Assembly: GCF_006538885.1 (NCBI RefSeq)
Contig: NZ_BJLY01000004.1
Span: forward strand, 310,001-374,000
Length of the DNA stretch: 64,000 nucleotides
Reading direction: 5' to 3'
DNA from: Gluconobacter roseus NBRC 3990
Lineage (GTDB): Bacteria; Pseudomonadota; Alphaproteobacteria; Acetobacterales; Acetobacteraceae
Below, one piece after another: positions 11,998 through 27,417 of this stretch. A program made the translations under genes and the position numbers. Position 1 is the first letter of the stretch; each line of letters begins with the position of its first letter. The notes below the pieces were generated by a model. That model was not told the DNA's origin, ran no database searches, and saw nothing but the letters and a program-made list of their open reading frames with translations.

Positions 11998-12100
11998 GGA
12001 GAGGCCTTTCTTCAGGCCGGACGTGCAGAGGGCTTGTATGGGCGGTTGGTGTTCCCGATAACGGGGACAACGACTTCATGTTCCAGACGACAGGATCATC

Positions 12101-13573
12101 ATGCTTTCAGTGATTTTCGATTCCCTTCCAGCCTTTTCTGCGGATGCGCCCAAGGCTGTCGTTCTGTTGTGTGATGCGGCCTCTGGCGAGATTTTCGCGG
12201 CGCTGGACAAGGCTTCGGCAGGAGCAGTTTCGCGCGCTGTTGCGCTGAAGGGATTCAAGGGTGAGGCCGGGCAGAGCGTGGTGCTGCCGGCTCCGGCTGA
12301 AGGGCTGTCGCAGATCGTGCTCGCCGGCGTGAAACCGAAGGGTGGTGCTGCTGTGGATGCCGTGGCCGTCGAGAACGCTGCCGGTCGGGCCGTTCGTCTG
12401 CTGGATGGTGTTGAGAGCGCGGTTCTGGCGCTTTCCGAAGGGCTGGAGCAGTTTGCTCCGGACGCGGCTCTGGGCGCGCGCCTGTCGTCCTATGATTTCG
12501 ATGTGTACCGCACGAAAAAATCCGACAGCCGTCCGGTTCTGAACACGCTGCATGTTGCGGTTTCCGATGTTGCGGCGGCGCGGACGCGATGGGCGGATCT
12601 GGATGCGGTCTCGCAGGGTGTGATCCTGACGCGGGATCTCGTGAGCGAGCCGCCGAATGTACTTTATCCCCAGACCTTTACGCAGCGTATCGAAGAACTG
12701 CGCGAGCTTGGACTGACGGTTGAAGTTCTCGACGAAAAGGCCATGACGGAGCTGGGCTTTGGCGCACTTCTGGGCGTGGCGCAGGGTAGTGTGCACAAGC
12801 CGCGCACGGTGATCGTCCGTCATAACGGCGGTGGCAGCGAGGCGCCTCTGGCCTTCATCGGCAAGGGCGTGACCTTCGATAGCGGTGGCATTTCCATCAA
12901 GCCTGCGGCCGGCATGGACGAGATGAAGACGGACATGGGCGGTGCTGCGACCGTGATCGGTCTGATGAGTGCGCTGGCCCGTCGCAAGGCGCCGGTCAAT
13001 GCGATCGGTGTTGTGGGGCTTGTCGAAAACATGGTGTCCGGCGGGGCGCAGCGTCCGGGCGATATCGTGCGGGCCTATGACGGTCAGACGATCGAGGTGC
13101 TGAACACCGACGCAGAGGGACGCCTCGTTCTGGCGGATGTGCTGTCCTATACGCGGAAGCGGTTCAGCCCGAAGCTGATGGTCAATCTGGCGACGCTGAC
13201 GGGCGCGATCGTGGTCAGCCTTGGCTACGAAAATGCCGGTCTGTTCAGCAACAGTGATGCTCTGGCTCAGGGACTGGCCGAGGCCGGGGCGCAGGTTGGT
13301 GAAGGTCTGTGGCGGATGCCGATGGGCGAGGCTTATAACCGCCAGATTGATTCCGACATCGCGGATATGAAGAATATTGGCGGTCGTCCGGGCAGTGCCA
13401 TTCTGGCGGCTGAGTTCCTCAAGCGTTTCGTGGGTGACACGGACTGGGCGCATCTGGATATTGCGGGCACGGCCTGGAAGACCAAGGCGTCCGCTATTGC
13501 GCCGAAGGGTGCGACAGGTTTTGGCGTGCGTCTGCTGGACCGGTTCGTGAAGGCACACGAAGCCAGCACCTGA
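12101..13573 (+). CDS. pepA: Leucyl aminopeptidase PepA
   Basis: Cytosolic di-metal (Zn/Mn) M17 aminopeptidase that removes N-terminal residues from peptides; in E. coli it also binds DNA for Xer recombination. 490 residues, normal for the family. The C-terminal catalytic domain shows the metal-binding sets [24 protein letters not shown] and [12 protein letters not shown]. The N-terminal macro-like domain is diverged. pepA followed by holC is a common alphaproteobacterial pair, and here the lpt operon lies nearby on the other strand as in relatives, with four other genes in between. Confidence 0.96.
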
Positions 13574-13589
13574 GGAGCGGGATAACGCC

Positions 13590-14033
13590 GTGGATGTCGG
13601 GTTCTATCATCTGACGCGCACGCCGCTTGAGCAGGCGCTTCCGGCCCTGCTGGGCCGGACGCTGGATGCCGGGGAACGCGCGGTTGTGCGCTGCCCGGAT
13701 GCGGCTGCGGTCATGGCGCTGGATACGGCGCTGTGGGCGTGTCGGGATCCGGTCTGGCTTCCGCATGGCACTGCAAAGAGCGGCCATGCGGCCCGGCAGC
13801 CGATCTGGCTGACCGAAGGAGAGGACGTGCCGAACGGGGCGCGGTTCCTGTTCCGCGTGGATGGGGCGGGAAGCGATGCGTTCGCGCCCTTCACCCGGAT
13901 TTTCGATCTGTTCGATGGTGGAAATCCGCAATCCGTTCAGCGGGCAAGAGAACGCTGGGTTACGATGAAATCTTCCGGTCACAATCTCGTGTACTGGAAA
14001 CAGGAAGAGCGGGGCTGGAAAAAGGCGGGGTAA
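13590..14033 (+). CDS. holC: DNA polymerase III chi subunit
   Basis: Clamp-loader accessory subunit that links the replisome to SSB. 147 residues from a GTG start 16 bases after pepA with an upstream GAGGAG. The N-terminal motif VGFYHLTRTPLEQALPALL and the later ARFLFRVDG and WVTMKSSGHNLVYWKQ patterns are those of alphaproteobacterial HolC. Its position after pepA supports the call. Confidence 0.92.
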   Translation: MDVGFYHLTRTPLEQALPALLGRTLDAGERAVVRCPDAAAVMALDTALWACRDPVWLPHGTAKSGHAARQPIWLTEGEDVPNGARFLFRVDGAGSDAFAPFTRIFDLFDGGNPQSVQRARERWVTMKSSGHNLVYWKQEERGWKKAG

Positions 14034-14117
14034 GGTTTCAAATTGTGTCTGAAACCATTGATGGAAGACGCTCCGTAACCGGGGTGCCGTTCATTGCACT
14101 GGAGAGGACGCCCGACT

Positions 14118-15242
14118 GTGCCAGACCCCATGACTTCTTCCCCCGCATCTCCGAAAACTGACCTTCGTCGCGCCGATATCAATCCCGACTTCTGGTATCC
14201 GCTGGCCTGGTCGAAGGATCTCAAGCGTGGCAAGACGATCGGGCGGCGGTTCGGGCGCTTTCCTATTGCACTGGTCCGTCCTGAAGAGGGCAGCGTTTTT
14301 GCGCTTGAAGATCGCTGCGCGCACCGTCAGGTTCCGCTCAGCCTCGGCAAGGTCAGCGGTGAGGCGGTGCAGTGCTGTTATCATGGCTGGGCCTATGGCC
14401 GCTCGGGACGCTGTATTGATGTGCCGTATCTGGGTAAGGGCAAACTGCCGAATGGTGTGAAGACATATCCCTGTCGTGAGGCAGGCGGAATGATCTTCGT
14501 TTTCCCCGGTGATGCGAGCAAGGCGGAGAGCGTGCCCCTGCCGCCTCTGGCACAAGTGGACAATCCGGCGTTCAAGACACGGCATTTCAGTCCGGTCGTG
14601 AAATGCCACTACACGTTCCTGCATGAAAACCTGATGGACATGAACCATCAGTTCCTGCACCGCCGTCAGATGGGGCAGATCAAGGCGCGTTTTCTGGGGC
14701 AGGACGCGGGCGAGAACTTCATCGAGGCGCGGTACAGCTTCGCGCGGACGGGAAACCAGCAGCCGCTGGCGGAACGCCTGATCTTCGGCAAGCATCATGA
14801 TGATCCGACCCGGGAGCAGCCGGTTGAGGAAATCGTCAGCATCCGCACGACCTATCCGTATCAGAGTCTGAAAATCCATGACAAGGACGGTGATCTGATC
14901 ATGGAGCTGTTCAGCGTTTATGTGCCGAACACGGCGGATGGGATGAGCACGCAGACTTTCGGTCTGCTGTCGGTACTGCGGCCAAAGACGCCGTTCCTGA
15001 TTGATCTGATCTGGCCGGCGCTGGGCATTTTCACGCACCGGATCTTTGAAGAAGACCGCGAAATCATGGAGCTGGAGCAGAACGCCTGGCGCGAACTGGG
15101 CGGCGATCATAACGTCGAGGTCTTCCCGATCGTGCGGAAATTGCGGGATCTTCTGGCAGCCAATGGTGCGGCGCCGGGGACCGATACGACGGCGCAGGCT
15201 GAAGTTTCGAGGGAACAGCCGGCTGATCCTGTCGTTGTCTAA
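14118..15242 (+). CDS. Rieske non-heme iron oxygenase, alpha-subunit type
   Basis: Aromatic-ring-hydroxylating-type oxygenase: a Rieske [2Fe-2S] domain feeds electrons to a mononuclear iron site that activates O2. The Rieske ligands CAHR and CYHGW are spaced normally (about residues 60-80), and the catalytic iron motif DMNHQFLH is at about 173-180 (Asp/His/His type). 374 residues from the GTG at 14118, chosen for GGAGAGG 10 bases upstream; TTG 14094 and ATG 14130 are alternatives. No beta subunit, ferredoxin or reductase gene lies nearby, so the partner is elsewhere or generic. The substrate cannot be told. A partly related group includes vanillate and Rieske-type sterol/lipid oxygenases. Confidence 0.85.
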   Translation: MPDPMTSSPASPKTDLRRADINPDFWYPLAWSKDLKRGKTIGRRFGRFPIALVRPEEGSVFALEDRCAHRQVPLSLGKVSGEAVQCCYHGWAYGRSGRCIDVPYLGKGKLPNGVKTYPCREAGGMIFVFPGDASKAESVPLPPLAQVDNPAFKTRHFSPVVKCHYTFLHENLMDMNHQFLHRRQMGQIKARFLGQDAGENFIEARYSFARTGNQQPLAERLIFGKHHDDPTREQPVEEIVSIRTTYPYQSLKIHDKDGDLIMELFSVYVPNTADGMSTQTFGLLSVLRPKTPFLIDLIWPALGIFTHRIFEEDREIMELEQNAWRELGGDHNVEVFPIVRKLRDLLAANGAAPGTDTTAQAEVSREQPADPVVV

Positions 15243-15263
15243 AGACACAGACAGGAAACAGTC

Positions 15264-16109
15264 ATGAAGACAGTCACACTCAGGAATGGTGTTACGGTTC
15301 CCGCGCTTGGAATGGGAACCTGGAATGTCGGCGACAGTGCGGCCCGGCATTCGGATGAGGTCGAAAGCCTGCGCAAGGGGCTTGAGGCCGGTCTGCGGGT
15401 CATTGATACGGCCGAAATGTACGGCAATGGCCGGTCGGAAAAGCTGGTGGGCGAGGCCATCGCGGATGTGCGTGATGACGTCTATCTCGTCAGCAAGGTT
15501 GTGCCGTCAAATGCGTCCTATGACGGTGTGCACAAAGCGTGCCGACGTTCGCTGAAGCATCTCGATACGGACTGGCTGGACCTTTATCTGCTGCATTGGC
15601 GTGGGGGCACGCCGCTGGAAGAGACGATCCGGGCGTTTGAGGATCTGAAGGATGACGGGCTGATCCGCGGATGGGGCGTTTCGAACTTCGATGTCGATGA
15701 CATGGAGGAAATCGAGAACCTGTCGGGGAACTGTCTGGTCAATCAGGTGCTCTATAATCTGGAACATCGCGGGACCGAGTTCGATCTTCTTGAACATGAT
15801 CTCAAGTCCGAAACCGTGACGATGGCCTACTCGCCATTGGGACAGGGGGGCGAGCTTCTGGATCATCCGGCGCTCAAGGAAGTGGCGTCACGGCATGAAA
15901 CGTCGCTTGGCCCGGCGGATACGGCCCAGATTGCTCTGGCATGGGTGCTGCGGCGGCCGAATATCATGGCGATCCCGAAGGCCGGCTCTCCGAAGCATGT
16001 GGCCGGAAATATCGCCAGTCTGGAAATCAGCCTGACGGATGAGGATCTCAAAACGCTCGACAGCGCTTTTCCTCCGCCGAAACGCAAGGTATCTCTCGCC
16101 ATGATCTGA
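15264..16109 (+). CDS. Aldo/keto reductase
   Basis: NAD(P)H-dependent carbonyl reductase with a TIM-barrel fold. 281 residues. The catalytic tetrad is recognisable: Asp and Tyr in VIDTAEMYGNG, Lys in LVSKV, His in LYLLHWRG, with the coenzyme-binding region IPKAGSPKHVAGN. The family in acetic acid bacteria reduces sugars, ketoses or small aldehydes; the substrate is unknown here. It begins 21 bases after the Rieske oxygenase stop and is probably cotranscribed with it. A short GC-rich inverted repeat follows the stop. Confidence 0.9.
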   Translation: MKTVTLRNGVTVPALGMGTWNVGDSAARHSDEVESLRKGLEAGLRVIDTAEMYGNGRSEKLVGEAIADVRDDVYLVSKVVPSNASYDGVHKACRRSLKHLDTDWLDLYLLHWRGGTPLEETIRAFEDLKDDGLIRGWGVSNFDVDDMEEIENLSGNCLVNQVLYNLEHRGTEFDLLEHDLKSETVTMAYSPLGQGGELLDHPALKEVASRHETSLGPADTAQIALAWVLRRPNIMAIPKAGSPKHVAGNIASLEISLTDEDLKTLDSAFPPPKRKVSLAMI

Positions 16110-16124
16110 CGGTCGTGGTGGTAT

Positions 16125-16155
16125 GCGGTCCGTTTTCACTTAACCTGCGGACCGC
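16125..16155. repeat. Inverted repeat between aldo/keto reductase and the hydrogenase-like operon
   Basis: GCGGTCCG (16125-16132) and CGGACCGC (16148-16155) form a perfect 8-bp stem with a 15-base loop. No T-run follows on either strand, so this is either an imperfect terminator or a leader hairpin of the next operon. Confidence 0.5.
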
Positions 16156-16242
16156 GCCCTGCATATTTTCTCCACCCTGTTTTACGCCGATCCGGTCTCT
16201 CTCTGCCTTGCTGTTCTGGCCATTCCTGCCTGTCTGCAGGCG

Positions 16243-17460
16243 ATGGAAGCCGGACATGGGGCGCGATCGGTGGTTATCTGTATTGCGGCACTGGCTGCGA
16301 TACTGGTGCTGTCCCCGGCTGTTCTGGCTGTTGCGCTTGGCGTGATCATCGCGCAGGATCGGGACGCGTGTCCGGCAGTCTGGACGGTTCCGGCCCTGCT
16401 GTTGAGCGTCCTTTTTCCTGCACACACCTTCGTTTTACTAGCACTGCTGCCGGTTCTGTTCTGGTCTTCGCTTGTGCGTCGGCGGGATGGGGCCTGTCCT
16501 TCCATTATGAGTACTCTTGCCGTCTCGCTGATCTGGCATGCGCCTTTGGCAGTTCCGGCAGAACTTGTGGCCGGTCTGGGGGGTGCGGTGTGCGGACTGG
16601 TTGGCTGGTCCGTTCTTGGGGCAGTCCGCCCCGGAAATCTGGGGCTGTTACGGCCTGTTCTTCTGATGGTTCTGGTCGTGGCGGCGCTGGCTGAGAGCCT
16701 TGCAGTATGCGCGCGGATCGCGCTGGAGGCGCTGCTTCTTGATCTGGCGCTGCTGGTACTGGCGGCTGCATTGGGACGAAGATTTCCAGTACTTGCCGTG
16801 CTGCGTCTGCCGTTCCCACCCTTGCCTGGACTGGTTGTGTTGTGGCTCGGGGTTCATGCGGCTCTTGGCATGGCGGCAGGCGTGGAGGGCTGGAGTGTCC
16901 TTGGCGTAGTTGTGGCCCTGCTGCTTGGGCTTTTGAGCCTCTCGGACATTCTCGAAGTGGGACGTTTGTTTTTCCTGCGTCGAGAAATCGTTTCAGGGGC
17001 ATCTGTTCTGCTGCTGGGCGCGGGAAGTCTTCTCGCGCCAGCTCTTGTGTTTGGACTGACAAGCCCTGTGCTGCACGCAATGGGGGGAGAGTGGGTCTGG
17101 CCCGTCTGGAGCATTGGTGCCGGGGATGGAGCGCATCTGCTGCTGCCAGCGTTCATTCTGACTGGTGCGGGGATCTGGATCGTTCTTGTACGACCCTGGC
17201 GGGTCATGGGTGGTGTGGTGCAGGCGGCCTCCCTGCTTGTGCCTGCGCTCGGGAAACTGCTGACGATCGGGGATGGGCTGTTTGACGAAGCACCTTCCCT
17301 GAACTGGACACTGCGTCGTGTCATCGCGGGTGGGCGGCTGCGTCTCCGAGGTCTGCGGAATGTGAGGGCGCCCGTGCTTCCCGATCTGCGTCAGGGCGCC
17401 GTCGGCCTCTGGCTTGTGCTCCTCGGTCTCGTCCTGGCGGTGCTGGGAGTGATGACGTGA
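16243..17460 (+). CDS. Membrane subunit of a hydrogenase-4/complex I-like operon, antiporter-like
   Basis: Very hydrophobic protein of at least 405 residues with about 12 transmembrane segments. Position and hydropathy suggest an NuoL/NuoM/HyfB-type ion-translocating subunit, but the sequence is strongly diverged and shorter than HyfB (~670), so the call rests mainly on context. The start is uncertain. The same frame stays open and plausible back to about 16144 (LFYADPVSLCLAVLA precedes the ATG, reminiscent of antiporter-like subunits), yet that stretch contains no ATG, GTG or TTG, and an ATG further up at 16123 is cut off by an in-frame TAA at 16141. Its stop overlaps the next gene by four bases. 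Confidence 0.6.
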   Translation: MEAGHGARSVVICIAALAAILVLSPAVLAVALGVIIAQDRDACPAVWTVPALLLSVLFPAHTFVLLALLPVLFWSSLVRRRDGACPSIMSTLAVSLIWHAPLAVPAELVAGLGGAVCGLVGWSVLGAVRPGNLGLLRPVLLMVLVVAALAESLAVCARIALEALLLDLALLVLAAALGRRFPVLAVLRLPFPPLPGLVVLWLGVHAALGMAAGVEGWSVLGVVVALLLGLLSLSDILEVGRLFFLRREIVSGASVLLLGAGSLLAPALVFGLTSPVLHAMGGEWVWPVWSIGAGDGAHLLLPAFILTGAGIWIVLVRPWRVMGGVVQAASLLVPALGKLLTIGDGLFDEAPSLNWTLRRVIAGGRLRLRGLRNVRAPVLPDLRQGAVGLWLVLLGLVLAVLGVMT

Positions 17461-18329
17461 TAGCGCATGAGATCGGAATGATCCTGCTGGCGATGCTGGA
17501 GGCGCTCTTTCAGCTCGGCCTGCTTCTAGTGCTGGCGCCTGTTATCGGCTGGTGTCTGGATGATCTGCCATTCCTGCTGGCTGGGCGATCGGTCGGGCCG
17601 GTGCGGTTCCGTCTTCTGCAGGCCGGACGCTTCTGGAAAACATTGTTCCGGGCTCCGCTGGGCGGGAGAACGGCGCTGGCGTTGATGGCTGGCATTCTGA
17701 CGCTTCTGTGCCTGCCTGCGGTCACGACGGGATCGGTCTTTTCATCTCTGGCGGACCCGCTGGTCATCGGGCTGGTGGTTTTGCTGGGACGCGGATTTGT
17801 GGGGCAGAGCCTGCTGCCGGGTGAGGCGGGGCGGTTCATTCCTGCCGTTCTGCTGCTGTGCCTGACCGAGGCGCTGATTGCGCTTGCGGCTCCGGGAACG
17901 GACGGGTTGGGGGGCTTGTGTGCGATGCTGCATATCGAGCCGGAGCCTGGTCTGGAAGGCGCGCTTGCCGCCTGTGCTCTGGCGCTGGGCATTGCGTGTC
18001 CTCCCCTGCGGGCGCAGGACGTCACGGGAATGCTGTCCGGCATCCGGGACCGTCAGGAACGTGAAGCGGCTCGGAGCATTGCCGATGTGCTGAACTGTGG
18101 GTGGCTGCTTCTGCTGTCCGATCTGGCGCTGCCGGTGAGTGTCGGGCTGGCGCAGGGCGGTGTGCAGGGCTGGTGGCTGGGGCTGCTGGCTCTGGTCGGG
18201 CGTCTGGCATTGACGGTTGCGGTTGCGGTCGGGCTGCGGCTTATGGCGCAGGAACGGAGCGCACGTCTGACGGCCCTGTTTGCAGGAGTGGCGCTTCTGC
18301 TGGCTCTGGCGGGGAGGTTCGGCACATGA
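17457..18329 (+). CDS. NuoH/HyfC-like membrane subunit
   Basis: 290-residue membrane protein with about 8 predicted segments. The N-terminal pattern LLLVLAPVIGWCLDDLPFLLAGRSVGP followed by FRLLQAGRFWKTLFR resembles the HyfC/HycD/NuoH family signature (hydrophobic helix, GR..GP loop, amphipathic helix leading to a K/R-rich turn). That subunit links the peripheral redox arm to the proton-pumping modules. The GTG start overlaps the previous stop (GTGA) and its stop overlaps the next ATG. The charged residues typical of the NuoH quinone-side loop are only partly kept. Confidence 0.65.
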   Translation: MIAHEIGMILLAMLEALFQLGLLLVLAPVIGWCLDDLPFLLAGRSVGPVRFRLLQAGRFWKTLFRAPLGGRTALALMAGILTLLCLPAVTTGSVFSSLADPLVIGLVVLLGRGFVGQSLLPGEAGRFIPAVLLLCLTEALIALAAPGTDGLGGLCAMLHIEPEPGLEGALAACALALGIACPPLRAQDVTGMLSGIRDRQEREAARSIADVLNCGWLLLLSDLALPVSVGLAQGGVQGWWLGLLALVGRLALTVAVAVGLRLMAQERSARLTALFAGVALLLALAGRFGT

Positions 18330-18847
18330 TCGTCGGGTTCGGATTGCTGCTGCTTCTGGCGCTTGCGGGGCTGGGCAAGGACGGGCGGGGTTTGCCGCTT
18401 TACGGGGCGGTCTGCGCCTTTGCAGGGGCGACGGTCTGTTCGGGGCTGATGGCGCTGCTGACGTCTGTGGCGCTGATCGGGCTGAATGGTCTGGCCTGGG
18501 CATGGCTGCGGCGGTTTGCGGCGGAAGCACCAGACCGGGCGGCTGTTCTGCCGGTTGTGGGGACGCTGGTGCTCCTGCTGGCACTTGGGCTGTCCGGTGC
18601 GGGGCTTGGACTGGCGCCGGTTCTGGGCGCGGGCGCGGTTCTGGCCGGGCTGTGTGGAGCGGCATGGGGTGTGCCGCTGGTGCAGTTTACCGGCCTGCTG
18701 CGGGCTGCTGACGGGCTTATTGTCGTGTCCTGCATTCTGCATTCCTGGCCACTTTTCTTGGCAGCACTGAGCCTTTGGGGCGTGCTGGCGGCCCTTGGCG
18801 TCACGCTTCTGCCGCGTCTGGCCTGGCGTCGGGTGGAGGAGGTCTGA
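18326..18847 (+). CDS. HyfE/NuoK-like small membrane subunit
   Basis: 173-residue protein with about five to six transmembrane segments and a basic C-terminus (RLAWRRVEEV). Size and operon position match HyfE (~216 residues), which contains an NuoK-like part. No diagnostic motif is strong enough for certainty. ATG at 18326 overlaps the previous TGA by four bases; its own TGA shares one base with the next ATG. Confidence 0.55.
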   Translation: MIVGFGLLLLLALAGLGKDGRGLPLYGAVCAFAGATVCSGLMALLTSVALIGLNGLAWAWLRRFAAEAPDRAAVLPVVGTLVLLLALGLSGAGLGLAPVLGAGAVLAGLCGAAWGVPLVQFTGLLRAADGLIVVSCILHSWPLFLAALSLWGVLAALGVTLLPRLAWRRVEEV

Positions 18848-19935
18848 TGCATCCGCTTGCCCCGATCGGAACGCTGTTTGCCGTAACGGTCTGGCCGCTT
18901 CTGGCGGCGTTCCTGCTGCTTCTGACGCCTGAAAACCGTCAGGCCGCCAGCAGTCTGACCTTTGCCGTGGCTGGGTTGGTTATCACACCGCTGGCTGTCT
19001 GGCTGATGCCGGGGACGGATGCGCTGGCGGCAGCCTGTTCGTGCATCGTGACCGCCATTCCACTCCTTCTGCCGCCGGCACAGGACCGGACCGGTCGGGT
19101 CCTGCCGTTCCTTGTTACGGGCTGTGCGCTTCTGGCACTGAACATTCATTCGGCCTTTGCCGTGACGGTTTTGTGTGGTGCGGGCACTGTTCTTCTGGCC
19201 TGGCGGGAAGGCCGGGGGCCGCGAAAGGCTCTGGTCGTGTGGGACATCGCACGCAGCAGGCTGGGCGGCGTCGTGCTGGGGCTTCTGGGGGCATCGCTTC
19301 TGCCGATGCCGCAGTCCTCGCTGGGGGCGGTGCTGCTGACGGTCGGGCTGTGCATTGTGGCGGGGCTTGGGCCATCGCCTGCTCCTGCACCCGAGGCGGC
19401 TTTGCTAGATACGGGACTGCGGTTTTCGGCGCTGATGCTGATGTTTCGTCTGAGTGCGTATCCGCTGGTTCATCTGCTGATGCTGATCGCGGGGTTCGGG
19501 ACGATCCTCATGCTGGTGACGGCGCGTTCCTCCGGCCGGGTCGTCTCGCTGCCGATGCTGTCGGCGTTCGGTGCGCTGGCCGCGGCGACCGGGGAAGGGA
19601 CGGCGATTGTTCTGCTGCTGCTCGCGGCGCTGGGGCTTGCGGTTCTGGATCTGCGTAGTGCTGAGGGGACTGATGTGATTGCGGCAGGCGCTGCGCCCTG
19701 GCCGGTGTTTTGTGCGCTTGTTGGCATCGGTCGATCGCTTGAGACGGGGCAGCTGATCCTGCTGATCGTATGCCTGCTCCCGGTTCTGTGGTCCGTGCGG
19801 CCCGCGACGCTTCTTTCGGCGTTCGGGCGTGGGGAGCGCGGCGTGGTGGCCGTGATGCAGGCCGTTCTGCTGGTAGGAGGGTTGTGCGGTCCGCTGTTTC
19901 TGGCCTGGCATCCGGTGACGGGGTGGCGGCCATGA
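18847..19935 (+). CDS. NuoN/HyfF-like antiporter-type subunit, shortened
   Basis: 362-residue polytopic membrane protein. The segment SPAPAPEAALLDTGLRFSALMLMFRLSAYPLVH lines up with the conserved antiporter-like stretch (AP..VSALL..G..K..LY..L) of HyfF/NuoN/NuoL; an Arg appears where the functional TM7 Lys normally sits. HyfF is about 526 residues, so several segments are missing. Whether it can pump ions is doubtful. It overlaps both neighbours (TGATG before, ATGA after). Confidence 0.6.
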   Translation: MHPLAPIGTLFAVTVWPLLAAFLLLLTPENRQAASSLTFAVAGLVITPLAVWLMPGTDALAAACSCIVTAIPLLLPPAQDRTGRVLPFLVTGCALLALNIHSAFAVTVLCGAGTVLLAWREGRGPRKALVVWDIARSRLGGVVLGLLGASLLPMPQSSLGAVLLTVGLCIVAGLGPSPAPAPEAALLDTGLRFSALMLMFRLSAYPLVHLLMLIAGFGTILMLVTARSSGRVVSLPMLSAFGALAAATGEGTAIVLLLLAALGLAVLDLRSAEGTDVIAAGAAPWPVFCALVGIGRSLETGQLILLIVCLLPVLWSVRPATLLSAFGRGERGVVAVMQAVLLVGGLCGPLFLAWHPVTGWRP

Positions 19936-21371
19936 GAAGCATGGGGCGGATTATTCGCAGTGGCGAGCGGGTCGCGCTGTCGCATTATCATCTTGATCCC
20001 GCGCAGTGGAGCGAGATGCTGACGGTGCCGGGAACGACGCTGCCGCTGATTTCCTGCTGGGCGGATGATGCCCGCGCTTACGTGCTTCTGTTGGAGGGGG
20101 ACTGTCCGCTTCTGGCGAGTACAATCGTGGAAGACCGGCGCTATCTTGCCCCGTCCTCGCGCTTTGCCGGCGCGGAATGGGGCGAGCGGGTGTCATATGA
20201 TCTTTACGGCGTGGAAGCGATGGATGCCCGTGGGAACGGGGCTCCCGCGCTGGATGAAGGGGGCTGGACCTCGACCTGGCCGCTGTCATCGCGTCCGGGG
20301 CCGGCGGCGGGAGGATTGCGGCCGCTGGCGGGAAGCCATCTGCTGCGTCCCGAGCAGACCGGACTGAGTGGTCCGCTGGAATTTTCCTTTGAGGTTCTGA
20401 AGGGGAAAATCCGGGATGTGGAAGTCTGCGCCGGGGCCGCGCATCGCGGTCTGATTGCCCGGCTGGCGGGAAAGACGCCGGAAGAGGCGATGTCGCTGGT
20501 GTCGCGTGTGACGGCGGGCGGGTTTGTTGCGCATCCGCTGGCTTTTGCCCGGGCCGTCGCGCAGGCGCGCGGGCTGGTTCCGGGACCGGGAATCCGGGAT
20601 GTCTGGATGATCCTGCTGGAGATCGAGCGGATTTCGATCCATCTGTTCGACATGGCACGGACGGCACGCGGCGTGGATGCGGAGCTTCTAGCGACCCATT
20701 GCGATCATGCGCGCGAAGCTATTGCGCGGGCCTGTGCGGAGCAGGGTGTTTCGCGTCGTCTGATGGATATGGTGACCTGTGACGGGTTCCGCGATGGGCT
20801 GGAAATCGTGCCGCTGGCGCAGGCTGTGCATGCGGCCATGCAGCCGCGTCTTGCGGCGCTGGAAGAGCTTCACCGGGTTTTTGCACCGCGTCTGGACGGG
20901 TTCGCCACGCTGGATGCGCGACTGGCAGAGCGTTTTGCCGTGGGGGGCGTGACCGGGCGTTCGAGTGGTCGCAGCATGGACATGCGGCGGCGGGAAGCCG
21001 GGATGCGGCTGGAGGCATTGCGGGCGACAGGTTCGAGCCAAGGCGATGCCCGGGCGCGCGAAGGGCTTCGGCTTGCGGAAATCCGGGATTCGCTGGCGCT
21101 GATGGAGCGTATTCTGGGAAGTATCGGTCTGGAGGATGACGAGCCTGCGCCGGACCGGACGGAAGAAGGGATCGGTGTGGCTGAAGGCGGGCGCGGAGAC
21201 GTCTGGTACTGGGTACGTCTGAAGGAGGGCCAGATCGAAAGTCTGCATGTCCGCGATCCCGGCGTTTCCCTGCTGCCTGTTCTGGGAGCGATGTTGCGGG
21301 GTTATGCTGTCGATCGCGTTCCGGCGGCGCTGGGCTCGATCGGGCTGTCACCGGCGGGGATTGCGCTGTGA
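19932..21371 (+). CDS. HyfG/NuoCD-like large subunit lacking the NiFe-binding cysteines
   Basis: 479 residues. An N-terminal NuoC-like part (to about 120) is fused to a NuoD/hydrogenase large-subunit-like part, as in HyfG and HycE. Family landmarks kept: EVCAGAAHRGLIARLAGKTPEEA and EIERISIHLFDMA. The two metal-site motifs are changed: RVCGIC becomes R-V-T194-A-G-G197 with His201 kept, and the C-terminal DPCxxC becomes D-P-G444-V-S-L447. No NiFe centre can be held, so this is not a hydrogenase. It matches what is known as Ehr (energy-converting hydrogenase-related) complexes or NuoD. The stop overlaps the GTG of the next gene. Confidence 0.8.
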   Translation: MRSMGRIIRSGERVALSHYHLDPAQWSEMLTVPGTTLPLISCWADDARAYVLLLEGDCPLLASTIVEDRRYLAPSSRFAGAEWGERVSYDLYGVEAMDARGNGAPALDEGGWTSTWPLSSRPGPAAGGLRPLAGSHLLRPEQTGLSGPLEFSFEVLKGKIRDVEVCAGAAHRGLIARLAGKTPEEAMSLVSRVTAGGFVAHPLAFARAVAQARGLVPGPGIRDVWMILLEIERISIHLFDMARTARGVDAELLATHCDHAREAIARACAEQGVSRRLMDMVTCDGFRDGLEIVPLAQAVHAAMQPRLAALEELHRVFAPRLDGFATLDARLAERFAVGGVTGRSSGRSMDMRRREAGMRLEALRATGSSQGDARAREGLRLAEIRDSLALMERILGSIGLEDDEPAPDRTEEGIGVAEGGRGDVWYWVRLKEGQIESLHVRDPGVSLLPVLGAMLRGYAVDRVPAALGSIGLSPAGIAL

Positions 21372-21850
21372 GCGTTAGACGTACAGGGCCTCTGAGCCTG
21401 CTTTATGCGTTCATGGATGCGACACGCTGGCGTCCGTCCATGCAGGAAACGGCTCCGCGCCGGGAGCGTCCCATCGGGCTGTATGTGCTCGAGACCGGAG
21501 GGTGCGAGGGCTGCTTCATGGAAATCGAGTCCCTGAACGGGAGTGCCTTTGCGCTGGAGCAGGCCGGGTTTGTCTGCGTGAATGACCCGGCGGATGCGGA
21601 CTGGCTGCTGCTGACGGGAGCCGTGACACGGGTCTGTGCTGAAATGGTGGACCGGGTGTGGCGGGCGATGCCACCGGGAAGATGTCTGATTGCGGTGGGG
21701 GCCTGCGCGGTGGATGGCGGGCCTTTTCCGGCCGGTTATGCGACGCTGGGCGGATTGCAGGCCCTGACGCCGGTGCGGCGTTCGATTGCGGGATGTCCGC
21801 CATCGCCGGAGGACCTGCTGCGGGCCTTGCAGGAGCTTGCGCAGGGCTGA
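21368..21850 (+). CDS. HyfI/NuoB-like small subunit with intact [4Fe-4S] ligands
   Basis: 160-residue soluble subunit that should carry the terminal iron-sulfur cluster next to the large subunit. All four ligands are visible: Cys46 and Cys49 (GGCEGCF), Cys113 (VGACAVDGGPF) and Cys143 (AGCPPSPEDLL). The GxCxxxGG and GCPP motifs are those of NiFe-hydrogenase group 4 small subunits and NuoB relatives. It is the last of six overlapping genes. No polyferredoxin (HyfH/NuoI) or HyfA gene is present, so the electron donor is unknown. Confidence 0.85.
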   Translation: MSVRRTGPLSLLYAFMDATRWRPSMQETAPRRERPIGLYVLETGGCEGCFMEIESLNGSAFALEQAGFVCVNDPADADWLLLTGAVTRVCAEMVDRVWRAMPPGRCLIAVGACAVDGGPFPAGYATLGGLQALTPVRRSIAGCPPSPEDLLRALQELAQG

Positions 21851-21908
21851 AGCGCCTGTCTGGAGATGGGAATTTTCCTGAAACAACGAAGTTTTGTCCC
21901 CGGACGAC

Positions 21909-21936
21909 TTGCCGTGACACGGTTTCGCGTTAAAGT
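21909..21936 (+). promoter_or_regulatory. Candidate sigma-70 promoter for fructokinase
   Basis: TTGCCG (21909-21914) and TAAAGT (21931-21936) are separated by 16 bases, in the 165-base gap before the fructokinase gene and about 80 bases from its ATG. Pattern match only. Confidence 0.4.
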
Positions 21937-22015
21937 AGACGGACGCACTGGATGCGTTTTCCATGAGGTTCGGTCGCCTGATACTCAGGTCACCGTATAG
22001 AGCACAGGGCTAGAG

Positions 22016-22951
22016 ATGGCTGATTATCGCCTTGGAATTGATCTTGGTGGCACGAAGATCGAAATCGTGGTTCTGAATCGTTCGGGCGATCTCGTCCTGC
22101 GTGAACGCATTCCCAACCCCGGCATCTATAATGAAGCCGTGCTGGCCATCCGTGATCTGGTCACGGATGTGGACCACCGTCTGGGTGCGGTGCCGAGCCA
22201 TCGTGTTTCGGCAGGGCAGCATACCTCCACGCTGGGCATCGGGATCCCGGGTTCCATCTCGCCCGAGACCGGTCTGATCAAGAACGCCAATGCGACCTGG
22301 CTGAACAACCAGCCTTTCGGTCAGGATCTGGAATCCGCGCTCGCGCGTCCGGTCCGGACGGAAAATGACGCGAACTGTTTTGCGTTGTCCGAAGCGGCGG
22401 ATGGTGCAGCCAAAGGCATGCTGACGGTCTTCGGTGTCATCATCGGCACGGGCATGGGTGCGGGCATCGTCAATAACGGTCGCGTTCTTGAAGGCCGTCA
22501 TCACATTGCGGGCGAATGGGGGCATCTGCCTCTGCCTTGGCCAACGGAAGAAGACATGCCCGCGCGTGACTGCTTCTGCGGAAACAAGGGCTGCATGGAG
22601 CGCTATCTGTGCGGTCCTGCTCTGGCGGCAGATTGGAAAGGTCCGGGTCACCGTAATACGGCCGGGATTGAAGATGCGGCCGCCAATGGTGATCAGGCCG
22701 CGATTGCTGCTCTAGGGCGTTATACCGAGCGTTTTGCCCGGGCCTGCGCGATGGTCATCAACTTCCTTGATCCGGATGTAATCGTGCTCGGCGGCGGCGT
22801 GTCCAACCTGCATACGTTGTATGAGCGCGTGCCGCCGCTGCTGGCCAAGCATGTGATTACGCCGGTTTGCACGACGCCGATCGTGCGCAACAAGCATGGC
22901 GACAGCTCTGGCGTGCGTGGCGCAGCATGGCTGTGGGACGTGACGGAATAA
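22016..22951 (+). CDS. frk: Fructokinase, ROK family (Mak-like)
   Basis: Phosphorylates fructose (and possibly other hexoses) with ATP at C6 in the cytoplasm, feeding the pentose phosphate pathway, which is the main sugar route in Gluconobacter. 311 residues. The ATP-binding motif DLGGTK is at the N-terminus; GIPGSISPETGLIKNANATWLN, ENDANCFALSEA and the zinc/ROK motif CFCGNKGCMERY follow. The overall pattern is close to E. coli Mak (manno/fructokinase), including the C-terminal KHGDSSGVRGAAWLW. Single-gene unit with a likely promoter in the 165-base upstream gap and a strong terminator downstream. Confidence 0.9.
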   Translation: MADYRLGIDLGGTKIEIVVLNRSGDLVLRERIPNPGIYNEAVLAIRDLVTDVDHRLGAVPSHRVSAGQHTSTLGIGIPGSISPETGLIKNANATWLNNQPFGQDLESALARPVRTENDANCFALSEAADGAAKGMLTVFGVIIGTGMGAGIVNNGRVLEGRHHIAGEWGHLPLPWPTEEDMPARDCFCGNKGCMERYLCGPALAADWKGPGHRNTAGIEDAAANGDQAAIAALGRYTERFARACAMVINFLDPDVIVLGGGVSNLHTLYERVPPLLAKHVITPVCTTPIVRNKHGDSSGVRGAAWLWDVTE

Positions 22952-22973
22952 GCCTGTCGCATAGAGGATATGA

Positions 22974-23006
22974 AAAAGGCCGCCCGATCATCCGGGCGGC
23001 CTTTTT
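22974..23006. terminator. Bidirectional terminator between frk and pssA
   Basis: AAAAAGGCCGCCCG and CGGGCGGCCTTTTTT form a GC-rich stem with a short ATCAT-containing loop, flanked by A and T runs. It can end both frk (plus) and pssA (minus). Confidence 0.9.
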
Positions 23007-23023
23007 TGTTGGCTTGTTTTCGT

Positions 23024-23905
23024 TCAGGCGGGCTCTTCTTCCACCGTTTCCGACATCTCCTCCGCCGCCTGTTTCAGGCGGTGATAGGAGCGGCGGGAGA
23101 AGGGCAGGATTGCGATATAGAGCAGTCCCGCACCGGCCAGAGCGCCCCAGGGGTCGGCGACCAGAAGCGCTGCATAAAGGCCGGTTCCGAGCATCAGGGG
23201 CAGCACGTAGCGCGCCGGGACCTTGAAGTTTTTGAAGGACCAGACGGGCAGGGTCGAGACCAGCAGCAGGCCTGTGACAATCAGGCAGACGGCCGAGACA
23301 AGCGGCAGTCGGGCAAAGGTGGCCAGACCTTCGGCATGCAGGCGGTCGGCTTCGAGGCCGAGGAAGACCGGGAACAGCACCAGTCCGGCACCGGCAGGGG
23401 CCGGGACGCCCGTGAAGAAACTGTAGGAGTATTCCGGCTTGTCTTCGTCATCAAGGCTCGCATTGAAGCGCGCGAGACGCAGCGCCATGCAGACCGTGAA
23501 CAGGATGCAGGGGACGAAGGCATAGCGCCCGGCATGTTCGAGCGACCACATGAGCAGCACGAAGGACGGTGCCACGCCGAAGCACACGAAGTCCGACAGG
23601 CTGTCGAACTCGGCGCCGAAGCGTGTGGCGCCCTTGAGCAGGCGCGCGATGCGCCCGTCCAGACCGTCGATGCAGGCGGCGATCAGCAGGGCCACGGCTG
23701 CGGGTTCGAACTGGTGTTCGAGCGCAAAACGCATGCCGCTGAGCCCGGCGCAGAGGCCGAGCATCGTCATGATGTTGGGGATGAGGCGGTTGAACGACGG
23801 CCCCCGCACGCGGGTGCGGGGATTGCGCCCCATGCGTCGGAGCCTGCGGCGGATGCGGCGTTTTCTGGCGGGGCGGCTGGGTTCAACCGTCGGAGGCAGG
23901 GTCAT
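23024..23905 (-). CDS. pssA: CDP-diacylglycerol-serine O-phosphatidyltransferase
   Basis: Inner membrane enzyme making phosphatidylserine from CDP-diacylglycerol and serine, the first step to phosphatidylethanolamine. 293 residues from ATG 23905. The CDP-alcohol phosphatidyltransferase motif DG(x2)AR(x8)G(x3)D(x3)D is complete in DGLDGRIARLLKGATRFGAEFD. A strongly basic N-terminal tail (RPARKRRIRRRLRRM) precedes about eight transmembrane segments. It is the membrane-integral type II enzyme. psd ends 14 bases upstream, so the two steps are one operon. Confidence 0.95.
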   Translation of the reverse strand: MTLPPTVEPSRPARKRRIRRRLRRMGRNPRTRVRGPSFNRLIPNIMTMLGLCAGLSGMRFALEHQFEPAAVALLIAACIDGLDGRIARLLKGATRFGAEFDSLSDFVCFGVAPSFVLLMWSLEHAGRYAFVPCILFTVCMALRLARFNASLDDEDKPEYSYSFFTGVPAPAGAGLVLFPVFLGLEADRLHAEGLATFARLPLVSAVCLIVTGLLLVSTLPVWSFKNFKVPARYVLPLMLGTGLYAALLVADPWGALAGAGLLYIAILPFSRRSYHRLKQAAEEMSETVEEEPA

Positions 23906-23919
23906 GAACGGCGTCTGGC

Positions 23920-24597
23920 TCAGAGCTTCGCCAGGACAGTTTCGCCACCAACCATGGTCTGTCCTTCCACAACCAGGGGTTCGACACCGGGCGGCAGGTA
24001 GACGTCGGTGCGGGAGCCGAAGCGGATCAGGCCGAAGCGCTCGCCGGCTTCCACGCGGTCGCCTTCTTCGACGAAGCACAGAATGCGGCGGGCGATCAGC
24101 CCGGCGATCTGGACAACACCGATATTGCGACCGTCCGGCAGCGTCAGGCGCAGTTCGTTGCGCTCGTTGTGTTCGGACGCCTTGTCGAGGCTGGCATTGA
24201 GGAACTTGCCGGCGTGATAGGCGATCTTCGTCACTTCACCAGCCGCGGGCATGCGGTTGATGTGGACGTTCAGCACGGAGAGGAACGTCGAGACGCGCCA
24301 GACCGGGGTGTGGCCCATTTCCAGAGCGGCGGGCGGGGTGACGAGCGCGACGGAGGTCACGCGGCCATCGGCGGAGGCCAGCACCAGATCGGCGCGCGGC
24401 GGCGGGACGCGCTTGGGGTCGCGGAAGAAGTAGAGGCAGAACGCCGTAAAGGCGATGCCGGCATTGCCCAGCAGGCGCGTGGGACGCCAGGGCGTGGCCC
24501 GTCCGAGCAGGCCTACGAGCGAACCCGCGAGGAGGAAGGGAGTCGCGGCACGGTGCGGCGGCGACAGGACAAGCTTGAAGGACTGGATCAGCGACAT
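23920..24597 (-). CDS. psd: Phosphatidylserine decarboxylase, short form
   Basis: Converts phosphatidylserine to phosphatidylethanolamine; a self-cleaving proenzyme whose new N-terminal Ser becomes the pyruvoyl group. 225 residues, the short form typical of alphaproteobacteria. [16 protein letters not shown] and the cleavage site region [12 protein letters not shown] (Gly-Ser) near the C-terminus are visible, plus one or two N-terminal membrane segments. ATG 24597 was chosen; the longer upstream reading is low-complexity. It pairs with pssA downstream. Confidence 0.95.
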
Positions 24598-24686
24598 GGA
24601 ACGCACTCTTACGGCACACGACGGGAGGGTCAAGAATTCGCCACAAAGAAGGCGTTTTTCGGGCAGGTTTTCCGCCTGAGCCTGTT

Positions 24687-25403
24687 TCAGGCGGGTTCGG
24701 CAACCTGTCGGGGGAGCGGAACGCGCAGTTTTTCGTCGATCAGCGGGGTTCCGGCATAGACGTTCTTGCGGGCCGTGACGATGTGCACACCGGCGCAGGG
24801 AAGCCGTGCGCCCCGGCCGATCCGTTCCATCAGGCGCCCGTGGGTGGCGGACAGGGCGGCGGGAGGCGCCATCAAGGCGCCGGAATGGTGTTCGATCCGG
24901 AAAAGGGTCTGGTCGAGTAGGCGGGTCAACTGGCCGCTGCTGTAGGGAATGCCATGGCCGAATGGTGTGGCGTCGGTATGGGCCCAATAGCCCGAGCGGT
25001 TGGGGACCACCAGCGTCAGGACGCCATCATCGGTGAGTGTGCGCCAGATGGCCCGCAGGAAATCCGGAGCAAAGCGGGTAAATTCGAGCCCGTGGATCAC
25101 GAGAACACCATCCATCGACAGGTCATCGAAGGGCAGACGGCCGCTGTCGACGATGCAGTCTCTTCGGGAAGGGCGGATGATTTTTTGCGTCTGTGGGTGG
25201 AGGAGGCGTGCGGACACCGCGCAGTCGGCACTGTCTGGAAGATAGGGTGCTGTGTAGCCTATCCCGAGAATGCGCCGGCCCCGCATGGGGGGCATGAGAC
25301 TTTGCAGGCGGTCATTGAGGAGCAGGGCCGTGCGCTGACCCTGCCGACTTTCATAGAAAGTGGTGGCATCATCGGAACGGGTGCGGGCCAGAGACGTCAG
25401 CAT
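24687..25403 (-). CDS. SAM-dependent methyltransferase-like protein
   Basis: 238 residues with a class I methyltransferase outline: motif I region [15 protein letters not shown], an acidic strand [14 protein letters not shown], and [23 protein letters not shown], the post-motif typical of methyltransferase 11-type folds. Motif I is degenerate, with no GxGxG, so activity is uncertain. Its 5' end lies 40 bases from gloB on the opposite strand; this divergent pair (methyltransferase-like/gloB) is common in alphaproteobacteria. The substrate is unknown. Confidence 0.75.
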
Positions 25404-25443
25404 GCAGTTACCTAATCAGCAAGACAGTCCAAGGGGAACAGTC

Positions 25444-26160
25444 ATGCCACTCGATATCAAGCCGATTCCGGTTCTCTCCGACAATTATGCTTGGCTGCTG
25501 ACCGCGACCGAGGGGCCGCGCGCCATTGTGGACCCCGGCGAGGCGGGGCCGATCATGGACGAGATCGGAGAGGGGCGGCTGGATATGATCCTGCTGACCC
25601 ATCACCATGCCGATCATACGGGCGGGACGGATGCGCTGCGGGAGCGTTATGGCGCGAAAGTCTATGGGCCGCGCCAAAACAGGGAGTGGCTGCCCCGGCT
25701 GGATCATGACGTCGAGGACGGAGAGAGCTTCCCGCTGGGGAACACGCAGATCCGCGTTCTCTCAACGCCCGGTCATGCGGTCGGTCATGTATCATATGTC
25801 GTGCCTGATGTGCCGGCGCTGTTCTGTGGCGATGTACTGTTCAGTCTGGGATGCGGGCGTCTGCTGGAAGGGACGGCGCAGGAACTGTTCGACAGTCTGC
25901 ACCGCTATGACAGTCTGCCGGACCGGACGCTTGTGTGCGCGGGGCATGAATATACCCGTTCCAATCTGGCTTTCGCGCTGCATGTTGATCCCGATAATGA
26001 GGCGTTGAAGGCGCGTGCCGGGGAAATCGAGCGTCTGCTGGAAGCCGGGCGGCCGACGCTGCCGGTAACATTGGGGATGGAGCGGAAGACCAATCCTTTC
26101 CTGCGGGCGCCGGATGTTGCGACCTTTGCGCGGCTGCGCAAGGAAAAGGACAGTTTCTGA
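25444..26160 (+). CDS. gloB: Hydroxyacylglutathione hydrolase (glyoxalase II)
   Basis: Hydrolyses S-lactoylglutathione to lactate and glutathione in methylglyoxal detoxification. 238 residues, metallo-beta-lactamase fold. Metal ligands: the THHHADHTGG motif (about residues 54-63), GHAVGHVSY, CGDVLF and the C-terminal CAGHEYTRSN. The start at ATG 25444 is supported by AAGGGGAA seven to ten bases upstream. Divergent from the methyltransferase-like gene and closed by a strong terminator. Confidence 0.94.
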   Translation: MPLDIKPIPVLSDNYAWLLTATEGPRAIVDPGEAGPIMDEIGEGRLDMILLTHHHADHTGGTDALRERYGAKVYGPRQNREWLPRLDHDVEDGESFPLGNTQIRVLSTPGHAVGHVSYVVPDVPALFCGDVLFSLGCGRLLEGTAQELFDSLHRYDSLPDRTLVCAGHEYTRSNLAFALHVDPDNEALKARAGEIERLLEAGRPTLPVTLGMERKTNPFLRAPDVATFARLRKEKDSF

Positions 26161-26167
26161 GGATACG

Positions 26168-26202
26168 AAAAAAGCCCCGCTCGAAAGAGACGGGGCTTTT
26201 TT
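26168..26202. terminator. Bidirectional terminator between gloB and the cio operon
   Basis: AAAAAAGCCCCG and CGGGGCTTTTTT pair around a loop of about 11 bases, with A and T tracts on the two sides. It serves gloB (plus) and the DUF2474-like gene at the end of the cio operon (minus). Confidence 0.9.
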
Positions 26203-26223
26203 CTGTGAAGTATCGTCAGATTG

Positions 26224-26373
26224 TTACCAGCCGAAGATGACCTTCTTGAGCAGTTCGGCGCCGAGACCGACGACGACAACGCCGCCAGCCCAGATTGCCA
26301 CGAACCAGCCCACACGTTTCATCCAGTTCAGGAACCCCGTCTTCTGATCGGGCTGTCCGTATTCGATGCGCAT
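26224..26373 (-). CDS. DUF2474-like small membrane protein of the bd oxidase operon
   Basis: 49-residue single-pass protein. A basic amphipathic N-terminal part (DQKTGFLNWMKR) leads into one transmembrane helix at about 21-40 (VGWFVAIWAGGVVVVGLGAE) and a short Lys/Trp-containing tail. Size, layout and position 18 bases after cioB match the DUF2474/CydX-like peptides that accompany bd-type oxidases and stabilise the heme-bearing core. I assign the family by pattern only. The gene is easily missed because of its length. Confidence 0.75.
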   Translation of the reverse strand: MRIEYGQPDQKTGFLNWMKRVGWFVAIWAGGVVVVGLGAELLKKVIFGW

Positions 26374-26391
26374 GGGCCGGGTTCCCTGTTC

Positions 26392-27417
26392 TTAGTGATA
26401 GTGGTGCCCAGCGGACATTTTTCCGCGGAACACGTAGTACGAGTAGGCCGTGTAGGAGAGGATCAGCGGCAGCAGGAACATCGTACCGACCAGCAGAAAG
26501 GTCTGGCTCTCCGGCGGAGAGGAAGCCTGCCAGATGGTGATGGTCGGCGGCACGATATACGGCCACACATTAATGCCTAGACCGCTGAAGCACAGGAAAA
26601 ACAGGCCCAGCGTTGCAACGAAGGGCAGCAGATGCGAGCGCGGGTTGCGCAATCCCATGAACAGGACGCCCGCCAGCACGACGACGGCAACCGGAACCGG
26701 AGCGACCAGTGCGAGCTGCGGCATGGCGAGCCAGTGCTGCATGTAGGTGGTGTGCAGCATCGGGGTCCAGGCGGAGACCAGTGCGATGGTGATCAGCATC
26801 AGCGCACCGAGACCGAAGGAGACCCTGCGCATCGTGTCATGTAGTTCACCCTCACAGCGCCATAGCAGCCAGGTTGCGCCGAGAAGCGCATAGCCGATGA
26901 CCACGGCGAGGCCGCAGAACAGCGAGAACGGAGAGAACCAGTCGAAGCTGGAGCCGATGAAAACGTTGTTCTCGACCTTGATGCCCTGAACGAGCGTTCC
27001 GAGAATGACACCCTGCATGAAGGCCGCAATGATGGAGCCGCCACAGAATGCCCAGTCCCAGAAGAACTGGCTCATCGGGGATTCGGCTTTGAAGCGGAAC
27101 TCGAAAGACACGCCGCGCAGGATCAGGGCCAGCAGCATGAACAGCACCGGCAGGTAGAGTGCCGGGAGGATCGTGCCGTAGGCAACGAGGAAGACGCCAT
27201 AGAGTGCGGCGCCGCCGAAGATCATCCAGGTCTCGTTGCCGTCCCAGACGGGAGCAACGGTGTTGACCATGAGGTTACGGTGATCGTGGTCCTTTTCCTT
27301 GAGGAAAAGGACGCCGATCCCGAGGTCGAAACCATCAAGGCAGATATAGAGGAAGATGGCTGTTGCTGCGAGCAGCGCCCAGACCACGGGAAGCCAGAAG
27401 CCGGCTGTTTCTGTCAT
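26392..27417 (-). CDS. cioB: Cyanide-insensitive bd-type ubiquinol oxidase subunit II
   Basis: CydB-family subunit of the terminal oxidase that pairs with CioA to reduce O2 with ubiquinol. 341 residues, about nine transmembrane segments. ICLDGFDLGIG near the N-terminus and WDGNETWMIFGGAALYGVFLVAYG (about 58-81) are CydB landmarks; FEFRFKAES follows. It sits 5 bases after cioA and is followed by the DUF2474-like gene. In Gluconobacter this oxidase is the low-efficiency, cyanide-resistant alternative to cytochrome bo3 (established for the genus). Confidence 0.95.
   Translation of the reverse strand: MTETAGFWLPVVWALLAATAIFLYICLDGFDLGIGVLFLKEKDHDHRNLMVNTVAPVWDGNETWMIFGGAALYGVFLVAYGTILPALYLPVLFMLLALILRGVSFEFRFKAESPMSQFFWDWAFCGGSIIAAFMQGVILGTLVQGIKVENNVFIGSSFDWFSPFSLFCGLAVVIGYALLGATWLLWRCEGELHDTMRRVSFGLGALMLITIALVSAWTPMLHTTYMQHWLAMPQLALVAPVPVAVVVLAGVLFMGLRNPRSHLLPFVATLGLFFLCFSGLGINVWPYIVPPTITIWQASSPPESQTFLLVGTMFLLPLILSYTAYSYYVFRGKMSAGHHYH

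Follow-up and report, generated by a model that had tools for sequence, protein, structure and literature searches.

What does an operon with the gene order of a hydrogenase do in Gluconobacter roseus NBRC 3990, and does the complex that it encodes still couple redox chemistry to ion transport? The question is raised by six genes in a stretch of 64,000 nucleotides of this genome, the whole of which is called the window here. A sequence-only reading of the window had taken them for complex I- or hydrogenase-4-like subunits resembling Ehr (energy-converting hydrogenase-related), and had suggested that a quinone or ferredoxin reaction might be coupled to ion transport.

Gene layout and relatives of the six subunits

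The six genes follow each other on the + strand in the order B-C-E-F-G-I, each overlapping the next by 1-4 bases (Table 1), and one stop-free frame per gene runs through the window and 16 named Gluconobacter loci; L035 and L038, both at contig ends, were left out of this six-gene frame comparison and of the HMM chain. The stop-free frames in these 17 loci, including the window, and dN/dS values of 0.01-0.22 bear out the earlier claim that the overlapping genes are real. For gene B the claim stands for the gene itself and not for its start, which had been placed at 16243, probably 78 bases late. The CTG at 16165 sits at the conserved N-terminus of B in 19/19 loci (17 from Gluconobacter plus L051 and L052), an ATG or GTG near the same site takes its place in L049, L053 and L054, and the ATG at 16243 is missing from 11 of the 17 Gluconobacter rows of the B alignment; these comparisons suggest that B probably starts at the former codon rather than at the latter. 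A hairpin at 16125-16162 (GCGGTCCG/CGGACCGC), with its 3' end a few bases upstream of the CTG, has a shuffle z-score of -3.9 in the window and of -2.4, -3.3, -0.9, -2.9 and -1.5 in five relatives, and may serve either to terminate transcription or to control translation.

Table 1. Genes of the operon and their positions in the window
Gene	Position	Strand	Product and basis of assignment
B	16165..17460	+	HyfB/HycC/NuoL-type antiporter-like subunit remnant; 431 aa from CTG 16165, 405 aa from ATG 16243
C	17457..18329	+	HyfC/NuoH-like membrane subunit, 290 aa, acidic loop missing; HMM chain, hhalign, fold
E	18326..18847	+	HyfE-like (NuoK-type) small membrane subunit, 173 aa; position and HMM chain
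F	18847..19935	+	HyfF-type antiporter-like subunit remnant, 362 aa; linked via intermediate profiles
G	19932..21371	+	HyfG/HycE/NuoD-like large subunit, 479 aa, without [NiFe] cysteines; PF00346
I	21368..21850	+	HyfI/HycG/NuoB-like subunit, 160 aa, four [4Fe-4S] cysteines; PF01058

As had been stated before, the operon has no neighbour of the HyfH/NuoI-like, HyfA-like, maturation or formate dehydrogenase kinds on inspection of 12000-27000 by eye, and NuoEFG or NuoI genes were likewise not seen beside it. In several loci of the acetous genera the neighbours are leucyl aminopeptidase, HolC and aldo/keto reductase genes upstream and pss-psd downstream, all of these names being assigned by eye. 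A Rieske-type oxygenase-like gene, also recognised by eye, lies at 14094-15242 between HolC and the aldo/keto reductase, and is absent from L051 and L054.

The two soluble subunits have direct matches in Pfam searches, G to PF00346 (1.4e-11) and I to PF01058 (1e-23), and their best solved-structure matches are both from E. coli formate hydrogenlyase, HycE for G (7z0s_E, 1.1e-8) and HycG for I (7z0s_G, 4.1e-20). The nearest named relative found for G is from G. vitians (97% identical), and I is the sole PF01058 protein of the window's genome in genome-wide profile searches, which covered PF00361, PF01058 and PF01924. For B, C, E and F there is no significant Pfam match and no NCBIfam family match, and their kinship was traced through profiles. 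Iterative HMM links C to canonical HyfC-like proteins of basal Acetobacteraceae (hhalign 98%, E 1.8e-13); its AlphaFold2 model (pLDDT 83) has E. coli HycD as the top Foldseek matches (TM 0.66 and 0.70), with NuoH also matched, and the predicted structure retains the HyfC/NuoH fold. The B proteins of a 33-locus derived set match canonical B at 96% (E 4.5e-9) in profile-profile comparison, over 175 columns around a PP..GF motif, and the B model is poor (pLDDT 58), with no fold match below E 0.001 and with weak HycC and NuoL matches behind an unrelated transporter at the top. Derived F is connected with its canonical counterpart by way of intermediate profiles (hhalign 99.6%, then 97.7%), the direct comparison giving only 11.8%, and E is connected to HyfE by position and the HMM chain. 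That the set is complex I/Hyf-like is supported by PF00346 in G, PF01058 in I and the HycD/NuoH fold of C.

The order hyfBCEFGI is that of hydrogenase-4. The order found here corresponds to it, which, with the formate hydrogenlyase subunits as best solved matches of G and I, would favour a functional [NiFe] hydrogenase-4; against it, the RxCGxC and DPCxxC cysteine motifs of [NiFe] enzymes were not found in G, either in the sequence or in its alignments, and HypD (PF01924) is absent from the window's whole genome (control positive 4/14). The missing Ni ligands and the missing HypD rule out a working hydrogenase, and a functional hydrogenase-4 is given next to no chance. A respiratory complex I is ruled out by the lack of a PF00361 antiporter, since no protein of this family occurs in the window's whole genome (profile search; control positive 13/14).

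Residues lost and kept in the derived clade

In an outgroup-rooted tree of G, the window falls in one clade of Acetobacteraceae that holds 53 of the 84 sequences (support 0.998), and with extra copies added this derived clade is again monophyletic, with 54 of 90 sequences (support 0.993); the first tree used 84 of 85 G sequences, L097 being too short as cut, and it was restored in the second. Outside the clade, the canonical signatures of C, B and F are all present in three outgroup loci from other alphaproteobacterial families (L122-L124), the acidic loop of C is present in basal Acetobacteraceae, and in one of the latter (L070) canonical B and F match PF00361 at 3.8e-44 and 1.6e-42. The outgroup and basal forms are thus Ehr-like and have their antiporter subunits intact.

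The charged residues scored in B, F, E and C are those which complex I antiporters, NuoH, Hyf and Mrp relatives use for protons. The acidic HyfC motif is absent in 52/52 clade loci with a C match and present in 20/21 such loci outside the clade, and the H..K motif of B is absent in 50/50 clade loci with a B match; in nine loci, short or at a contig end, B could not appear. The patterns themselves are imperfect: L109, L120 and L121 fail that of C, L074, L106 and L113 that of B, and L119 that of the cysteines. In the residue alignment of B (22 of 23 rows used, positions numbered by the L081 row), the canonical E91, K203, K302 and E357 occur in 0/14 derived rows and in 7-8 of 8 canonical rows, the derived rows being those outside the Gluconobacter side, where the divergence of B prevents alignment at E91 and K203; at E91, 12 of the 14 are gapped instead of carrying a substitution. 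In the window itself, the alignment of B with the canonical form extends over only 175 columns, which do not take in E91 and K203; within them, the segment with K302 is lacking and E357 has given way to another residue. In F, for which 29 rows were chosen, K234, H349, K353 and E408 are found in 0/21 derived rows, the window included; statements on F rest on this alignment, as the label 'f-' also covers loci without any canonical F. In E, the LENGL of two canonical rows is replaced, with the Glu absent in all 23 others. The PF00361 match at the operon weakens by steps: canonical genomes give 1e-39 to 1e-49, intermediate ones 1e-16, 6e-12, 1e-5 and 8e-4, and others none. In L079, a basal derived row, E persists at two of the F positions, and PF00361 is still matched in part.

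With the residues that carry it out gone, ion coupling by the complex I mechanism is unlikely, and the complex probably no longer pumps protons in that way; the earlier suggestion of coupling to ion transport finds no support, the charged complex I/NuoH path residues being missing from the membrane subunits either in the window or across the derived clade. A redox reaction might still be coupled to ion transport through a rewired path, to which the HyfC/NuoH fold retained in the C model, the purifying selection on all four membrane genes, and a few conserved titratable residues in the membrane would lend themselves: in the alignment of the Gluconobacter side, for which 22 of 33 rows were used, B H204 is conserved in 20/22, C D96 in 19/22 and C D218 in 21/22, and C Glu138 is invariant in 18 aligned rows. 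Nevertheless, in the same 22 rows no Lys or Glu of B reaches 80% conservation, the core Lys and Glu are lost from those derived rows that were aligned, and both antiporter-like subunits are shorter than their L070 versions, B by reduction from 626 to 405-431 aa and F from 491 to 362 aa, so that a rewired path is considered decidedly improbable.

The soluble subunits have fared differently from each other. Subunit I has kept all four Fe-S cysteines in 32/32 derived rows, all from loci with I, and in 10/10 relocated copies. In G, 50 of the canonical-conserved positions are kept and 56 are lost in the derived clade, the losses including H157, E162, D211, W468, N490 and N494 (canonical protein numbering). 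Both the cysteine and the G residue-conservation alignments left out 14 Gluconobacter loci together with L074, L075, L104, L107, L109, L111 and L115. Their place beside the [NiFe]/quinone motifs suggests that these lost residues of G line the catalytic cavity, and the quinone-binding His/Tyr of Nqo4 are unmatched in the G alignment. Residues newly fixed in the derived clade number three in G, one in I and none in C, too few to signal clearly one new common function.

Distribution, retention and selection

A G match at 1e-3 was obtained in 353 of 397 genomes of the family, the weak matches including NuoD, and each acetous genome sampled has one copy besides the NuoD-type matches. Across the class, 17 of 115 sampled genomes have a G match at 1e-40, 15 of them outside Acetobacteraceae, and 14 of these 15 are 52-60% identical to the G of basal Acetobacteraceae. 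In the fifteenth, a 1.4 Mb alphaproteobacterium of another family (G417:C70:9532-10878), a G that is 30% identical contains one in-frame TAA, possibly a separate instance of decay.

The gene order is conserved for B-C-E-F-G, and I follows next in most loci and has moved in some genera. In eight genomes (G022, G192, G037, G008, G228, G149, G085 and G259) I is either on a different contig from G or over 1.8 Mb distant from it; in others, G170 among them, it is found a few kilobases further downstream, and in G046 (L089) a 32% match lies elsewhere in the genome. A loss of I, which seemed absent beside the operon in L059, L060, L062 and L063, is ruled out, given that I is present in 25/25 genomes searched, even where it stands outside the operon. 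The complete 2.0 Mb genome G066 has neither G nor I.

Some basal Acetobacteraceae have more than one copy. G329 combines a derived-clade G (L075, its B and C cut off by the contig end) with a canonical-type copy (L117), and further canonical-type copies occur in G113 (L118, L119) and G143 (L120, L121). None of the five extra copies groups with the derived clade, and all have retained signatures of B or F, which means that the canonical and the derived type occur side by side in some members of the family; there, the loss may have been preceded by a duplication or transfer.

In nine pairs drawn from 16 Gluconobacter sequences, with dS near saturation in some pairs (up to 2.65), dN/dS is 0.09-0.22 for B, 0.07-0.17 for C, 0.01-0.09 for E, 0.05-0.11 for F, 0.04-0.10 for G and 0.05-0.19 for I, the neighbouring genes giving 0.05-0.07 (aminopeptidase), 0.02-0.11 (aldo/keto reductase) and 0-0.05 (ROK kinase). 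These ratios indicate that acetic acid bacteria keep the six-gene complex under selection. A slowly decaying relic without function would agree with the outright loss in at least one small genome (G066) and with the pace of B, the fastest-evolving of the six, B, C and I all exceeding the aminopeptidase; it would not agree with dN/dS far below 1 in all six genes, with the lack of an internal stop in G among the matches listed, with retention of the operon in genomes of about 1.9 Mb, or with the preservation of I and its cysteines after leaving the operon. Such a relic has a slim chance only, and simple decay is ruled out by the dN/dS values and the invariant cysteines.

Retention under selection could also be that of a structural or assembly scaffold without redox turnover, comparable to the deranged bc1 and COX1-like proteins of Acetobacteraceae. 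According to the available sections of Degli Esposti et al. (2023, PMC10715153), this family retains non-functional respiratory proteins, perhaps stabilising complex I or CtaB, and the joint loss of pocket and proton-path residues in the operon would fit such a role. In 4 of 26 sampled genomes, however (G250, G170, G070 and that of the window), the operon is retained with no PF00361 protein and hence no recognisable complex I, so that stabilising complex I cannot account for its retention, and the explanation offered for bc1 in those sections does not apply. The four cysteines of I are, moreover, invariant, and a pure scaffold would not obviously need them. By analogy with the deranged proteins, a scaffold is ranked second to a redox module, and is regarded as unlikely.

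Proposed function and comparison with known systems

That the complex is retained and the cysteines of I are invariant argues for redox work by the I/G pair. The sequence comparisons show that the operon descends, in stripped form, from a complex I-superfamily complex that was Ehr-like and had six subunits. They also show that its membrane arm lost the proton-moving residues in the ancestor of the clade to which the acetous genera belong, that I retained the one [4Fe-4S] site, and that the core of G was kept and its pocket rebuilt. In the preferred reading, a cytoplasmic one-electron donor might then reduce the cluster of I, from which the electron would pass to a ligand in the altered pocket of G, and the four membrane subunits would serve as an anchor, perhaps also as an entrance from the lipid side. 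The predicted non-pumping, membrane-anchored, single-cluster redox module is given an even chance of being right. The broader proposal, that the whole clade of acetic acid bacteria converted a pumping relative of complex I into a non-pumping membrane redox device whose four membrane subunits stay under selection despite the loss of the known proton-path residues, is put forward more tentatively, as somewhat more apt to fail than to hold.

If the broader proposal holds, the membrane arm has a use other than ion transport. Debates on complex I hinge on which residues couple redox chemistry to pumping, and a clade from which the coupling residues are gone, with the Fe-S site and the NuoH-type fold remaining, would serve as a naturally uncoupled control, in industrial bacteria that are amenable to genetics; as no other antiporter of the complex I superfamily is recognisable in the window's genome, a phenotype would be free of confounding. 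For Acetobacteraceae, it would add another 'deranged' respiratory complex, and at least this one is argued not to be kept for the stability of complex I. No description of the complex in Gluconobacter or Acetobacteraceae was found in the open-licence literature.

With the deranged bc1 and COX1-like proteins, as described in the available sections of PMC10715153, the complex shares the retention of respiratory proteins of the same family despite the loss of key residues, and it differs from them in keeping the Fe-S ligands of I and losing the ion path; the six-gene complex is unmentioned in those sections, where the only 'hydrogenase' is a type 1 hydrogenase. Respiratory complex I (Nuo) has the same NuoB-, NuoD- and NuoH-like core, whereas the window's genome is without PF00361 and the quinone-site His/Tyr of Nqo4 are unmatched in G. 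The Hyc and Hyf complexes of E. coli provide the best solved relatives of G, I and C (HycE, HycG and HycD), but the window complex lacks a [NiFe] site, neither a polyferredoxin nor a formate dehydrogenase gene lies beside the operon, and the genome has no HypD; of the features of group 4 [NiFe] hydrogenases, neither the two CxxC pairs nor Hyp maturation is found, as judged from the G alignments and the genomic lack of HypD.

A G without [NiFe] cysteines makes Ehr the nearest named kind. Ehr is reportedly the subject of papers by Coppi (2005) and Marreiros (2013). The likeness lies in the G/I core, with a NuoD/HyfG-type G that lacks the [NiFe] ligands and a NuoB/HyfI-type I that has one [4Fe-4S] site, in the NuoH-type C, and in two genes in the antiporter position. 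The description of Ehr in the available part of a Sulfobacillus paper (PMC4378227), where its function is stated as unknown, fits these shared features. The difference is that the antiporter-like (NuoL/M/N) subunits of Ehr have an intact proton path, whereas the window complex lacks the antiporter and NuoH path residues, has a shortened B and F, and has replaced pocket residues in G. The resemblance to Ehr in the sequence-only reading therefore holds for ancestry and for a G without [NiFe] cysteines, and not for the present anatomy, from which the antiporter path residues are gone; by its sequence, the window complex is a descendant of Ehr and not a working Ehr.
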